From positions 124,001 through 188,000 of the forward strand of contig NZ_JACJQO010000012.1 in NCBI RefSeq assembly GCF_014696715.1: a stretch of DNA of 64,000 nucleotides. The letters run 5' to 3'. The first letter of the stretch is position 1; the number at the start of each line of letters is the position of its first letter. Of this stretch, positions 48,121-54,335 are shown in pieces. The translations under genes and the position numbers were made by a program. The notes under the pieces are model-generated. The model worked only from the letters and a program-made list of their open reading frames with translations. It had not been told where the DNA came from and searched no databases. The stretch is from Pseudanabaena sp. FACHB-2040. Lineage in GTDB: Bacteria > Cyanobacteriota > Cyanobacteriia > Phormidesmidales > Phormidesmidaceae.

Positions 48121-48699
48121 TTATCTCTCTGTAGCTATTTGAAATTCCTGCAATTGCTCAATCAGGTGATCGAAGAAGGGAGCTTGCTGGATTGCCTGCT
48201 GAGGAGACAGCCGCACTAGGCTATGACGCTTAAGCGCTACCAAAGCTGCCACCATTGCATCAAGGGGTACCTCTAGCCGGTAGTAGAGCTGGCGCAGTCG
48301 GGCAAGACCATGAGCGTTGGTGTAGGGGCTCTGACCGATGACTATGCCATAGGTAATGCAGCGGAGAAAGTGCCACAGATCTCGCCAACATGCGATCGCA
48401 CGTGCTTCAGGATATAGCCCACCGCCGGGTTCAGTGATGTCGGGAAAGTGGGCCAGCAAATCTGTGCGTGCTGCATTCACAATGTCGTCTGCCTGCTCTC
48501 GGAGGACGTTTAAGGCTTCGGCCAAAGCTAAGTCTTGCTGAAGGCGTGCCAGGGGCAGCAGGTCTGTCTGTTCCAGAAATCGGCCTTCTCGATCGGCTTG
48601 ATAGAGGACAGCCTGCATATCCAGAGGCGCTAGTTCGATATCAACTAACTGGGTGCGAACTTCAAATTCGTGGTCGGCCACAGTTGCTTTATTCGCCAT
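48121..48699 (-). CDS. Orphan phycobiliprotein-like protein
   Basis: The 192 aa protein has a globin-like phycobiliprotein fold (PF00502 type) by eye. VLYQADREGRFLE matches the start of helix A in CpcB, and ARAIACWRDLWHFLRCITYG matches the bilin-binding helix, keeping the Cys-x-Arg-Asp pattern at Cys104-Asp107. An extra N-terminal stretch of about 25 residues precedes the fold. It is not CpcA/B nor clearly an allophycocyanin subunit. It is divergent from a CpcS/CpeS-like lyase gene. Confidence 0.8.
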   Translation of the reverse strand: MANKATVADHEFEVRTQLVDIELAPLDMQAVLYQADREGRFLEQTDLLPLARLQQDLALAEALNVLREQADDIVNAARTDLLAHFPDITEPGGGLYPEARAIACWRDLWHFLRCITYGIVIGQSPYTNAHGLARLRQLYYRLEVPLDAMVAALVALKRHSLVRLSPQQAIQQAPFFDHLIEQLQEFQIATER

Positions 48700-48920
48700 A
48701 CTGCTAAGGCTCCTGGCTTTGACGACCTAAGGGCAGGAATATACATCTGACCCTCATCTCAAATCATAACCGGAGACAGATTGCAGCTCGAAATTAAGTA
48801 TAATTACTTAGCCTTTGCTTCTGAGCTTTTGAGAATTTCCTTCCTACGGCTAACCCCTTAACCCTTTCGGGTTATTGCGATCTACGGGCGTCTCTACTAG
48901 GATTAAGAAAATTAACAAAA

Positions 48921-48933
48921 TCCCTAGTAGGGA
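48921..48933. promoter_or_regulatory. Perfect palindrome TCCCTAGTAGGGA upstream of the lyase-like gene
   Basis: A perfect 6+1+6 dyad directly precedes a possible -35 (TTGACT, 48934-48939), about 48 bases before the start codon. CTACTAGGATT (48894-48904) and AATCCCTAGTAG (48919-48930) form a second, wider dyad. It is probably an operator. Confidence 0.5.
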
Positions 48934-48980
48934 TTGACTTTTGGGAAACTTTAATCTCTACCTAAGGTTGGGACTGAGCT

Positions 48981-49517
48981 ATGCCGTTTTCAGTGGATAC
49001 CGCCCGTTTACTGGCTGAATCTTTAGTGGAGTCGTTTTTCAGGGATTCGGAGGGCGACTGGCAGTCTGAGCGGCGCTACTACACCCTAAAGAGCGGGGAG
49101 ACTCAAGAAGTCGTTAGCCAAATCCAAATTAAGTTCTTGCCTGCAGGCCACGAGGAACTGATCCATCTAGCTCAGCTGCATGAGTTGCGCCCTGAAGAAG
49201 CCTTAGTTTCTGGTGCCAGAGTGACATGGGAAAGTGACTACGTCGGCACTAGTAAAAAGCCTGTCGAGGGCAGCACTATCTTCGGCGTGCGTGGTTCAAC
49301 GCTGTTTCGAGATCGGGGTTTTGCTACCTCCAAGCCCGTTACCGCCCACTTCTTTTTCCGTGATCCTAGGACGATGTTTCTCCGCACTGAGTATCAGGGA
49401 TCTTCTTTTGAAGAGGAGATCAAGCTGATTGGCAAGCAGTATCGTACGCGCCAAACTGTGATTTCTCGTGCGGGTGAGGAAATTATGATTGGGCAGTATT
49501 TGGAGAAACGACTTTAG
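48981..49517 (+). CDS. CpcS/CpeS-family phycobiliprotein lyase-like protein
   Basis: The 178 aa protein has the lipocalin-like beta-barrel pattern of this family: FFRDSEGDWQSERRYY, then GARVTWESDY, GSTIFGV, and TEYQ. Known members attach phycocyanobilin to Cys82/84 sites. It differs from the canonical CpcS at 51996, so it may be CpcU-like, CpcV-like or specific to the divergent orphan phycobiliprotein. Its start is clear (ATG 48981), and a GC-rich hairpin (49533-49556) follows it. Confidence 0.85.
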   Translation: MPFSVDTARLLAESLVESFFRDSEGDWQSERRYYTLKSGETQEVVSQIQIKFLPAGHEELIHLAQLHELRPEEALVSGARVTWESDYVGTSKKPVEGSTIFGVRGSTLFRDRGFATSKPVTAHFFFRDPRTMFLRTEYQGSSFEEEIKLIGKQYRTRQTVISRAGEEIMIGQYLEKRL

Positions 49518-50246: not shown

Positions 50247-50362
50247 CATTGCTGCTTAGGCAGAGTCCGGTTTTTTAAGGATTGCAACAGAGAGGATGAG
50301 TTGGCACCTTTATGAGAAAGGATTTAAGCAAGGTATTCGATTATTAAGAGGTCAGTACTTTG

Positions 50363-50626
50363 ATGAACACCCTTTTACTCGCTGCTTCAACGATTCCTAA
50401 CACCGTTAGCTGGAGCCCCAAGATCGCTATTGTCATGATCGTGGCGAACGTGCTTGCGATCGCAATTGGCAAATACACTATGAAAAACCCGGGTGCAGGC
50501 CCAGCTCTGCCCGGCTCTGCGTTTTTTGGTGGCATGGGCTGGCCCGCTCTGCTAGCGACCACTAGCTTCGGCCACATTCTCGGTTTAGGCACCATCTTGG
50601 GCTTGGCTAACGCAGGCGTTCTTTAA
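50363..50626 (+). CDS. psaK: Photosystem I reaction centre subunit PsaK
   Basis: This small two-helix thylakoid protein at the edge of PSI is involved in antenna binding and state transitions. The 87 aa protein has a short N-terminal leader (TLLLAASTIPNTVSWSP), two hydrophobic helices (about 20-35 and 65-85) and the conserved ATTSFGHILGLG. ATG at 50363 with GAGG 11 bases upstream. A strong bidirectional terminator separates it from the convergent cpcL-type gene. Confidence 0.94.
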   Translation: MNTLLLAASTIPNTVSWSPKIAIVMIVANVLAIAIGKYTMKNPGAGPALPGSAFFGGMGWPALLATTSFGHILGLGTILGLANAGVL

Positions 50627-50680
50627 CCCTACTCCTGCCTGTACAGCAAAATTCTCCATAATATTTCTTTGTAAAAGCAA

Positions 50681-50707
50681 AAGCCCTCCTAATCGGAGGG
50701 CTTTTTA
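50681..50707. terminator. Bidirectional terminator between psaK and the cpcL-type gene
   Basis: A perfect 9-bp stem AAGCCCTCC / GGAGGGCTT with loop TAATC runs into TTTTT on the plus strand and has an A-rich flank for the minus strand. Confidence 0.92.
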
Positions 50708-50729
50708 TTAGGGCACAGGCAATAGATTG

Positions 50730-51473
50730 CTAGAGGTGGAGCCAGCCAAACCAGGACAATACGACTGCGATCGCAGTTAGCCCCAATAAGCTAGCTAGGG
50801 CATAGGTCAGAGCTGCCCCCACTTTACGGACTGGTTCAGGCGGCAGCCAAAGCGTGCCATCATCCACCACCCGATCGGCCGAAAAGTCGTACCCCAATGC
50901 CGATAGCGTGCTCAGGTGCTCCTGGTCATAGCGGGGCATCCGCTCAAAAGGCAACTCCCCCTTAACCCGTTGAGGCAGCACCCGGCGGCGCTGGTAAGGT
51001 ACTGTATTCTCCCCAAAATTGCTTAGATACTCTTCGCTGTTAAGCAAGTCATCAACAAAACCATAAAGCCCCTTGGTCGCCAGAATAATAGACCAGGCAA
51101 TCTTTTCTCGCTCATCATAGACATTGCGGCCTAAAAGGCGCTGTACGCAAAGTTCAACAAAGCGATAATTGTTGTTGACCTCAAAATTCCAAGTGCGGAA
51201 AGCACCCGAGGTCGCCAGCCCTCGAATAAAATCCCTGACAGTAATTTGCCCTGACCTCAGTTGAGATTCCAGCAAAATCTGACGATTGCTTTTCAGCATC
51301 TGCTGTTCGTGAAAAACCTGACGGTAAGCGGCTGAAATCAAATCATCTGTGTCTAAAGCCGATAACACGCTATCAGCCGTATAGATTCTGGGGTGCTCAT
51401 CACCTGGAACTTCAAAACCCTGAACCCGTTGATTTTGACTATTGGGAAAATAGTTTAGTAAAGGAAGAGCCAC
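50730..51473 (-). CDS. cpcL: CpcL (CpcG2-type) membrane-anchored phycobilisome rod linker
   Basis: The 247 aa protein has an N-terminal linker domain (about 18-180) with [40 protein letters not shown] and [16 protein letters not shown]. Unlike core-binding CpcG, its C-terminus is a hydrophobic helix (about 216-245, [20 protein letters not shown], then LSWFGWL). This is the mark of CpcL, which anchors core-less phycocyanin rods in the thylakoid, often at photosystem I. It is tail to tail with psaK. ATG at 51473. Confidence 0.92.
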
Positions 51474-51995: not shown

Positions 51996-52577
51996 CTACC
52001 AGCCAAAGGCTGAGAATGCTTCCTCAGGGGCATCTACCGACCCTGATTCTGCCTTATCGGCAACGCGAGACTCAGCACAAAAAGACGCCGTGCTGAGACC
52101 ACCAAAGCGCTTCACAACACTGGTTCGCAGGCGCAGGTCGGGGTTGGCAAACCAAAACCGCTCTACCGAGCTCATGGTTTCGTACTCAGTGATCAGCACT
52201 AGGCCCTCGTCCTCATCAATCTCATAGCTGCCAATGACAGGAACGATTTCGGCATAACCCCGTTCCCGTAATAGCTGGCCTGAGCGAGGGTTATCGGCAT
52301 TGGGGACAAGGGCAAAGACGGTTGTGCCCTCATGGTTCTCATCGTCTTTATCCCAAGCCATAGAGCCTTGCCATTTAACAAAGGCACCCCCTACAGCCAG
52401 GGCGGGCTCGACGCTGTGCAGCTTACAGATTTCAACCACGCTGGGATGGTCTGCATCTAGCGCTTCTACAGAAATAGTAGACCCCCCCAACTCAGCTCGT
52501 CTGAAAGGCAGGTGATGAGTGGTTCGCTGAGATTGCCATTGACCCGCACTGAGGCGGAAAAAATCCATTACATCCAT
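51996..52577 (-). CDS. cpcS: CpcS, phycobiliprotein lyase for Cys82/84 sites
   Basis: Canonical CpcS-I sequence: MDVMDFFRLSAGQWQSQRTT, then LLRERGYAEIVPVIGSYE, LITEYETMSSVERFWFANP and LRLRTSVVKRFGGLSTASFC. It is known to attach phycocyanobilin to Cys82 of beta-phycocyanin and to allophycocyanin. The ATG at 52577 fits the family N-terminus (193 aa); the frame is open to 52646. It is divergent from cpcB. Confidence 0.92.
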   Translation of the reverse strand: MDVMDFFRLSAGQWQSQRTTHHLPFRRAELGGSTISVEALDADHPSVVEICKLHSVEPALAVGGAFVKWQGSMAWDKDDENHEGTTVFALVPNADNPRSGQLLRERGYAEIVPVIGSYEIDEDEGLVLITEYETMSSVERFWFANPDLRLRTSVVKRFGGLSTASFCAESRVADKAESGSVDAPEEAFSAFGW

Positions 52578-53228
52578 TGACTCTGCTGGGGTAAATCTGT
52601 TCAGTGTTGCAGTTCGTTTCAGGTTATAAAGCTGATGATAAATCATCCTGACTCAGTAGAGCAGCCTCTCAGAAACCCACTCCAGTAGACACAAGCCCTT
52701 TCAAGACAAGGCTTTCAATCCTCTGAAGGCCTTTAAGAGACAACAACAAACAGTTTTTTGCCCCTACCAACTGGGTCGATGTTGAGCTTTGTTAAGCGAT
52801 TCTGTAGAAGTACAGGCTTAAAAAAGGAGCGGAAAAGTTCTTGAAACGCCAAGATACCCTCCCTTTGAAGGGGGCAAGCTGCGTTTTAGCCTTAACAACT
52901 TGTAAAAGATAAATACGCTACAGCAGTGTATAAAAAATCTGTGAGGGTTTGGATGACAAGCGAAAGCTAGTCCAGGCAATGCTTCCAGGATCTGCTGCGG
53001 AGTGTATCCCAGATGTTTCCTTATGTCTCACAACTTCCCTCAAGATTGCTAAGGCTGTTGTATTAAGCTTCCTGAAGCAATTTTGAAGAAGTGTTAAAAA
53101 AATGAGAGATGTCTACTGCCTGTCTTTTAAGATTCTCTCTATAGACCGATGACGCAGCTTCTTGCTGATAACGGTCATAGAACCAGAATCATCAAACTCA
53201 GCGACAAAAAATTTAGGAGATTGAGTCG
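52578..53228. promoter_or_regulatory. Promoter and leader region of the cpc operon
   Basis: These 650 bases hold no gene. TTAGGAG at 53213-53219 is the cpcB ribosome-binding site. A CCCTCC...GGGGG hairpin lies near 52858. A long untranslated leader is typical of cpc operons. AT-rich segments near 52905-52935 and 53090-53110 are promoter candidates. Confidence 0.6.
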
Positions 53229-53747
53229 ATGTTTGACGCATACACCAAGGTAGTTTCCCAGGCTGACGCACGAGGCGACTATCTGTCCTCCGATCAGCTG
53301 GATGCTCTAGGTCGTGTTGTTAGCGACGGTCAGAAGCGGATCGACGCTGTTAACCGCATGACCGGCAACGCCTCCAAGATCGTTGCTGATGCTGCCCGGG
53401 CTCTGTTTGCTGAGCAGCCCCAACTGATTGCTCCTGGTGGCAATGCTTACACCAACCGTCGTATGGCTGCTTGCCTACGCGACATGGAAATCATCCTGCG
53501 CTACGTCACCTACGCTACCTTCGCTGGCGATGCTAGCGTTCTCAACGATCGCTGCTTGAACGGCCTGCGTGAAACCTACGCTGCTCTAGGCACTCCCGGC
53601 GCTTCTGTTGCTGCTGGCGTTGAGAAGATGAAGGCTGCTGCTCTTGCCATCGTCAACGATCCTGCTAACATCACCCAGGGCGACTGCAGCTCTCTGGTTT
53701 CTGAAATCAGCAGCTACTTTGACCTGGCTGCTGCTGCTGTTGCCTAG
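53229..53747 (+). CDS. cpcB: C-phycocyanin beta subunit
   Basis: The 172 aa protein carries two phycocyanobilins, at Cys82 (ACLRDME) and Cys153 (GDCSSL), both present. Asn72, the site of gamma-methylation, is in GGNAYTN. It heads the operon and has an ideal ribosome-binding site nine bases from the ATG. Codon use is strongly biased, as expected for one of the most abundant proteins of the cell. Confidence 0.99.
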
Positions 53748-53846
53748 GTTCACCTGATTTGAACCTCACTGGCGCTTGTTCAAATCAAGCGCAATCCTCT
53801 GACTGTTCATTCATTCGCTGTGAAGACACTTTAGGAGAACCTATTC

Positions 53847-54335
53847 ATGAAAACCCCTCTAACCGAAGCGGTCGCTGCTGCTGATTCCCAAGGTCGTTTC
53901 CTCAGCTCTTCTGAGCTGCAGGTTGCTTTCGGTCGTCTGCGTCAAGCTCAATCTGGTCTAGAAGCTGCTAAAGCGCTAACCAGCAAGGCTGACTCTCTCG
54001 TCAGCGGCGCAGCTCAGGCTGTGTACAACAAGTTCCCCTACACCACCCAAATGCAAGGTGCTAACTACGCATTTGATCAGCGTGGTAAGGACAAGTGCTC
54101 TCGTGACATCGGCTACTACCTGCGCATGGTGACCTACTGCTGCGTAGCAGGTGGTACCGGCCCCATGGATGAGTACCTGGTTGCTGGTCTCGATGAGATC
54201 AACAGCACCTTTGAACTGTCTCCCAGCTGGTACGTTGAAGCTCTGAAGTACATCAAGGGCAACCACGGTCTGTCTGGTGATGCAGCTACCGAAGCTAACT
54301 CCTACATCGACTACGCCATCAACGCTCTAAGCTAG
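53847..54335 (+). CDS. cpcA: C-phycocyanin alpha subunit
   Basis: The 162 aa protein has its single bilin site at Cys84 ([11 protein letters not shown]). It forms the (alpha-beta)6 discs of phycobilisome rods with CpcB, which lies 99 bases upstream. A large stem-loop follows its stop. Confidence 0.99.

Follow-up and report, generated by a model that had tools for sequence, protein, structure and literature searches.

The gene at positions 48121-48699 (minus strand) of the window, which is the whole stretch of 64,000 nucleotides analysed here (Pseudanabaena sp. FACHB-2040, contig NZ_JACJQO010000012.1, positions 124,001 to 188,000), is an open reading frame (ORF) with an ATG start and codes for a phycobiliprotein of 192 aa. 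Judged by its sequence, it is an orthologue of aplA, and AplA is an already described class. The source genome is 6.28 Mb long and 99.95% complete, with the window on contig 12. Pfam family PF00502 matched the protein with 145 bits across residues 31-183. Six NCBIfam models of phycobiliproteins matched it, each below its curated cut-off, the best being ApcA with 75.6 bits against a cut-off of 270. The best matches in PDB were allophycocyanin-B and ApcA chains; among the canonical proteins, alpha-type allophycocyanin is thus the nearest. The bilin-attachment residue Cys104 (codon at 48388-48390, minus strand) lies in ACWRDLWHFLRCITYG as part of Cys-Trp-Arg-Asp, and a second cysteine, Cys114, is placed ten residues further on (codon at 48358-48360, minus strand). 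Homologues were recovered throughout the class in a protein search of 388 genomes, which puts the coding features beyond chance. An original prediction made from the letters alone had described an orphan phycobiliprotein with a Cys-x-Arg-Asp bilin site and an N-terminal extension, next to a CpeS-family gene and a palindrome; all these elements are present, and their coordinates are correct.

In a tree built from 62 phycobiliproteins, 29 AplAs and the window protein form one clade of 30 rows, with a support of 100 in the Shimodaira-Hasegawa-like approximate likelihood ratio test (SH-aLRT). The clade is separate from ApcA, ApcB, ApcF, the ApcD-like protein encoded on contig C17 of the same genome, CpcA, CpcB, and the phycoerythrin (PE) subunits, where the labels ApcA, ApcB, ApcF, ApcD-like (C17), and ApcF-like (contig C5) were assigned by eye. 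The prediction that the protein is distinct from alpha and beta phycocyanin is thereby borne out. It is not a core subunit either, and no grouping with ApcD or ApcF was seen in this tree, in which the genome's own ApcD-like (C17) and ApcF-like (C5) proteins were included. It is not an unclassified protein, as had been assumed, because it belongs to the AplA clade; it can be called an orphan within the source genome, but not beyond it, as AplA homologues exist throughout the class. In the class search, the AplA family was found at about 34-60% identity to the window protein, and below it were many matches of about 31-36% identity with E near 1e-21, which were taken as ApcD-like. Genomes with AplA (104) were picked by hand from 140 genomes having matches at E up to 1e-20; the criterion was E <=1e-23, plus five weaker ones accepted by genus or locus (G349, G187, G320, G352, and G071), the ApcD-like matches were dropped, and the CWRD motif was checked in part of the 104.

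At the bilin site, the fetched AplAs have CWRDFWHFLRC or a sequence very similar to it, and the pattern shared with the window protein is visible without any tree. In two picocyanobacterial loci (L095 and L096), a homologue of the window protein is coded immediately ahead of the gene for a CpcG-type linker. The homologue family was tied to aplA because this arrangement corresponds to the published position of aplA, given in PMC2246261 as beside cpcGII in marine Synechococcus. Other sources place aplA also in pigment clusters of picocyanobacteria (PMC6363710, PMC5478717). The window protein was filed as AplA because of the clade support of 100, the bilin-site pattern, and the aplA-like synteny of its relatives. 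No viral relatives of AplA were confirmed.

The solved structure closest to the window protein is ApcD (allophycocyanin B alpha), both by sequence (82.9 bits) and by fold. ApcD differs from it in having only about 30% identity, a position in a separate clade, and no extension, and the ApcD-like protein (label by eye) of the source genome is the one on C17. AplA was reportedly characterised by Montgomery et al. in 2004 as an allophycocyanin-like protein with an extension of about 28 aa and a covalent chromophore, and is said not to occur in phycobilisomes. The window protein agrees with AplA in being nearest to allophycocyanin alpha and in its intact bilin cysteine, place in the clade, and CWRD-x-W-x-F-LRC pattern. 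It has an N-terminal extension too, although one whose sequence does not show the signature of the family. It differs in that its genome is without PE, its extension retains none of the eight conserved positions of the family, and the genome has no close homologue of a HEAT-repeat protein often coded near aplA.

In the alignment with 129 other AplAs, C, W, R, and D at the position of Cys104 are present in 129 of 129; as this set was picked for having WRD, only the C is an independent count. Cys114 is a cysteine in 123 of the 129. The N-terminal extension occupies codons 1-30 (48610-48699, minus strand), and relative to allophycocyanin it is about 20-24 residues long, as estimated from the starts of full-length PDB matches (protein residue 29-34, chain residue 6-11) and of structural matches (protein residue 21-24, chain residue 1-3). 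Nearly all fetched AplAs are extended at the N-terminus, and LIxKARIVSF or a sequence very similar to it is part of their extension. Eight extension positions have a conservation of 90% or more among the other AplAs; the window protein keeps none of them, a score shared by two other AplAs in an alignment where several sequences are cut or have odd starts. Conservation then rises to 3/6 such positions in the stretch following the extension and 9/10 in the body ahead of the bilin region; it is 21/22 in the bilin region itself (residues 91-130) and 18/21 in the C-terminal part. The odd N-terminus is not explained by a frameshift, as the other two upstream frames have no trace of the motif. The changed extension and kept pocket suggest that a contact with a partner was altered or lost, possibly along with PE.

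A predicted structure was computed for the window AplA with AlphaFold, and with a mean predicted local distance difference test (pLDDT) score of 90.7 the fold is confident. For its globin body, the match to both allophycocyanin alpha and smURFP is at about 2 Å. The smURFP, an engineered derivative of allophycocyanin alpha, superposes on this body at 2.0 Å over 134 residues; it differs in being engineered and shorter, and residues 1-52 of AplA are without counterpart in the match. Over allophycocyanin chains the AplA model fits in Foldseek at about 8.5 Å; the matches aligned from residue 53 on are at about 2 Å, compared with about 4 Å for those starting near residue 23, which points to a different placement of residues 23-52 in the model. 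The control, a model of the window CpcA (pLDDT 84.8), deviates by 4.0 Å from its 88% identical solved chain. Because of this similar misfit nothing was drawn from the placement of residues 23-52, and structure as evidence of a changed alpha-beta pairing was dropped. The model supports the fold only, as such monomer models can misplace a part of the chain.

The AplA family is linked to PE. Among the 388 class genomes, with AplA assigned by hand and relatedness uncorrected, 93 have both AplA and cpeB (E up to 1e-80), 11 AplA only, 21 cpeB only, and 263 neither; cpeB is thus present in 93 of 104 AplA genomes vs 21 of 284 genomes without AplA. The source genome belongs to the 11. Its 13 PF00502 matches include no PE subunit, as judged by position and sequence, and neither cpeB nor PebA/PebB was found in it. 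A single bilin reductase is coded there, above the cut-off for PcyA. Since no PE was found and PcyA is the single bilin reductase, phycocyanobilin (PCB) would be the likely chromophore of this AplA. As for the other AplA genomes without cpeB, G011 (100% complete) and G031 (99%) have an AplA with recognisable extension; G308, G210, and G273 have genes for PE-type linkers beside aplA, and their lack of cpeB may be a matter of assembly only. The remaining ones are G071 (99% complete), G083 (95%), and G086, G290, and G380 (93, 77, and 73% complete, respectively). In the loci L165 and L166 (G031 and G011, respectively), AplA is divergent from CpcT, and elsewhere these genomes have cpcBA in duplicate, with a few kb between the copies. 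The unusual part of the window case is the combination of a genome without PE, a kept bilin region, and a diverged extension.

Several observations weigh against the assignment as an AplA orthologue. The name AplA was given from synteny, from relatives already so named, and from citing papers, and not from a comparison with the founding AplA of Fremyella. The branch of the window protein is long (0.96 against a median of 0.19) in a tree that carries long-branch warnings, and the protein is without the N-terminal signature of the family. A close orthologue was not found, and both AplA and the CpeS-like gene went undetected in the one other genome of the same genus, which is 78% complete. The source genome also breaks the link of the family with PE. 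The class is known, and its member in the window is a genuinely odd one. The long branch, the loss of all eight conserved extension positions with only three of six in the next stretch, and the missing neighbours described below would also fit a relic, i.e., an AplA decaying after the loss of PE with the divergent N-terminus as the first sign. But the ORF of 192 codons is intact, its predicted fold is confident, nearly all conserved positions are kept from the body to the C-terminus, and G011 and G031, also without cpeB, keep an AplA with recognisable extension, so we consider decay unlikely.

The surroundings of aplA were compared in 127 loci, which were obtained from 147 (drawn from 68 regions of the class sample and from the top 80 among 226 relatives in genome contigs) by removing near-identical cores; they are a non-random sample, and their flanks are often cut by contig ends. 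The commonest neighbour within 6.5 kb, in 83 of the 127 loci, codes for a HEAT-repeat protein of about 220 aa (e.g., L239 7061-7723), weakly related to NblB and CpcE/CpcF. Its gene is opposite to AplA in orientation in 88 of 92 copies and divergent from it within 1.5 kb in 62/127 loci. Other neighbours are a pentapeptide-repeat protein (62/127), PE-type linkers (61/127), and a cluster of bilin reductases represented by PebB (51/127). No close homologue of the HEAT-repeat protein was found in the source genome, where the best match had 30% identity. In tblastn with one or a few representatives each, no remnants of the HEAT-repeat, pentapeptide-repeat, PebB, or 112-aa PE-cluster genes were detected in the window (all E above 0.1), and CpeS-type queries recovered only CpcS and the CpeS-like gene. 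From its recurrent position, the HEAT-repeat protein is a better candidate for a partner of AplA than the CpeS-like neighbour in the window.

This neighbour (48981-49517, plus strand) codes for a protein of 178 aa of the CpeS family, i.e., similar to S-type lyases, with PF09367 matched at 131.1 bits against a curated cut-off of 23.3. The prediction of a CpeS-family gene head to head with the phycobiliprotein gene and distinct from the canonical CpcS (51996-52646) agrees with the Pfam match and the tree. CpeS-family genes of the source genome are four: CpcS, the neighbour of aplA, a CpcU-like gene on C17, and a fourth one on C5. In the tree, the neighbour is in a clade apart from CpcS, from the lyases of PE clusters, and from the C17 and C5 paralogues, where the CpcU-like protein has a long branch and an uncertain position and the subfamily labels were inferred from context. 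The arginine of W-x-[ST]-x-R and the R-x-R pair, presumably relevant for catalysis in S-type lyases, are kept in the aligned CpeS-like sequences. The neighbour resembles CpcS, CpcU, CpeS, and CpeU in these residues and in the family match, and differs in its clade and in lacking the CpcU motifs PNLR and SEIR. The motifs SAGKWFS, PNLR, and SEIR, named for Arthrospira CpcU in PMC6273044, were unmatched in the neighbour when the alignment was read by eye, with near matches in the C17 paralogue.

According to the original prediction, both genes could be a dedicated pair; in such a pair, the CpeS-like protein would specifically load AplA and the palindrome would co-regulate the two. Besides the head-to-head order and the kept arginines, divergent AplA and CpeS-like genes no more than 4 kb apart in 16 of 127 AplA loci (12 from f1, the family of the source genome, and 4 from other families) speak for it. 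But the HEAT-repeat gene is between them in 15 of these 16, and L139 is the only locus with the two less than 600 bp apart and no HEAT-repeat gene between. The adjacency in the window may thus be a remnant after the loss of a gene between. At the genome level, the CpeS-like gene is present in 191 of 388 class genomes (E up to 1e-40), 59 of 104 with AplA vs 132 of 284 others, which is not significant (Fisher p 0.086, relatedness ignored). The closest CpeS-like homologues, 68-76% identical, are from 34 genomes of the same family, some incomplete, and AplA was detected in only one of them (G325); likewise, the nearest relatives in the tree are from f1 genera without detected AplA. Of the regions with these homologues, 12 were fetched (L147-L158), and in 8 of them the CpeS-like gene and the fourth CpeS-type gene are arranged head to head. 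The CpeS-like gene thus looks, in its distribution, like a general neighbour rather than a partner specific to AplA. In 7 of the 127 loci (L063, L139, L172, L184, L223, L244, and L246), a divergent CpeS-family gene of the fourth type follows aplA on the same strand and is another candidate lyase for AplA.

The intergenic region between the two start codons is 281 bp long (48700-48980). The predicted palindrome, AATCCCTA-G-TAGGGATT, is at 48919-48935, and an additional imperfect pair of 11 nt is at 48891-48901 and 48923-48933. When two substitutions at most are allowed, an element of the form AATCC-spacer-GGATTGACT precedes 17 of the 53 other copies of the CpeS-like gene, against 11 of 1080 upstream sequences shuffled by single bases, and both halves AATCC/GGATT are exact in 11 of the 53. 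Its distance to the CpeS-like gene is 56-60 bp in the other copies and 62-63 bp in the window. All 17 copies are from genus g7, where AplA was not found. Because the same element recurs in genomes without detected AplA, it is no evidence of a regulated pair, and, as far as its recurrence tells, it belongs to the context of the CpeS-like gene. A dedicated lyase pair is poorly supported by these results, and we regard it as quite unlikely.

Downstream of the CpeS-like gene, the window codes for the bilin lyase CpcT (PF06206; 49653-50246, plus strand), PsaK (50360-50626, plus strand, by NCBIfam), and a rod linker of CpcG/CpcL type with a hydrophobic C-terminus (50730-51473, minus strand; ORF, NCBIfam, and Pfam, with the label CpcL given by eye). 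CpcS (51996-52646, minus strand; Pfam and tree) is CpcS-I-like according to an inferred label, and cpcB and cpcA (53229-54335, plus strand) are both above the NCBIfam equivalog cut-offs. The genes of psaK and the CpcL-type linker (50360-51473) are convergent neighbours and represent perhaps a gene group of a photosystem I antenna. With these two genes 1.7-2.8 kb away, AplA could be an antenna subunit, either a terminal emitter or a linker-bound bilin of CpcL rods feeding photosystem I. A linker more than 50% identical to that of the window occurs in 9 of 127 AplA loci, and the published position beside cpcGII (PMC2246261) would fit too. The linker association is, however, confined to a small minority of AplA loci, and an antenna role is quite improbable. 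Among the papers listed by literature searches on a link between CpcL, PsaK, and a phycobiliprotein or terminal emitter, or on orphan phycobiliproteins, none was recognised as concerning the AplA family.

Further phycobiliprotein-like genes were observed. On contig C10, a degenerate phycobiliprotein of 157 aa with KRCQYDM at the bilin position (153231-153647, minus strand; L008 1486-1959) has its gene closely followed, on the same strand, by that of a linker-domain protein of 246 aa far under the CpcG cut-offs (152625-152999, minus strand; L008 586-1326). A similar protein of 154 aa with KCQRDM is at C5:739993. Weak PF00502 matches are at C22:86284-86595 (L011) and C22:62161-62466 (L013), in proteins of 358 aa, with SCLRDF, and 168 aa, respectively. 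Two f13 genomes have an extra phycobiliprotein of 161 aa (L088 1454-1939 and L161 18393-18878) that groups with the ApcD-like protein of C17, and its genes adjoin a cpcT-type gene and cpcBA.

As a whole, the locus is probably best explained by an aplA orthologue, i.e., an allophycocyanin-like, non-antenna biliprotein that would carry PCB on Cys104 and act outside the phycobilisome. After folding of apo-AplA as a phycobiliprotein, an S-type lyase, either CpcS with the CpcU-like protein or the CpeS-like neighbour, would put PCB on Cys104, and these lyases would not be specific to AplA. AplA would then act through protein contacts as a light- or bilin-sensing protein. The sensory role, one of those predicted, is in line with PMC2246261, in which a sensory, non-antenna role is proposed for the class; papers that mention AplA name it a photosensor or photoreceptor with function unknown or place it in gene clusters. 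A function as a bilin store or chaperone buffering free PCB is very unlikely; the conserved bilin site and the setting among lyase genes, which would agree with it, fit every other reading equally. Under the AplA reading, the window gene is probably derived from a PE gene cluster, the usual site of AplA. The lineage would have lost PE, rather than never having held it, along with phycoerythrobilin synthesis and the HEAT-repeat gene; the body and the bilin pocket of AplA would have stayed conserved, and the extension, presumed to be the partner surface, would have diverged.

A more far-reaching and very improbable proposal is that AplA is a photoreceptor of phycobiliprotein fold, in which Cys114 would engage the bilin or sense redox state and the extension would be the output surface; in the window case, the sensor would have been kept and its output re-targeted, perhaps to the neighbouring CpcL/photosystem I antenna. 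For the family, the comparison gives three handles on AplA function: the tight co-occurrence with PE, the HEAT-repeat gene recurring as its divergent neighbour, and, in the window, a natural variant without PE and the extension signature, yet with the bilin pocket kept.
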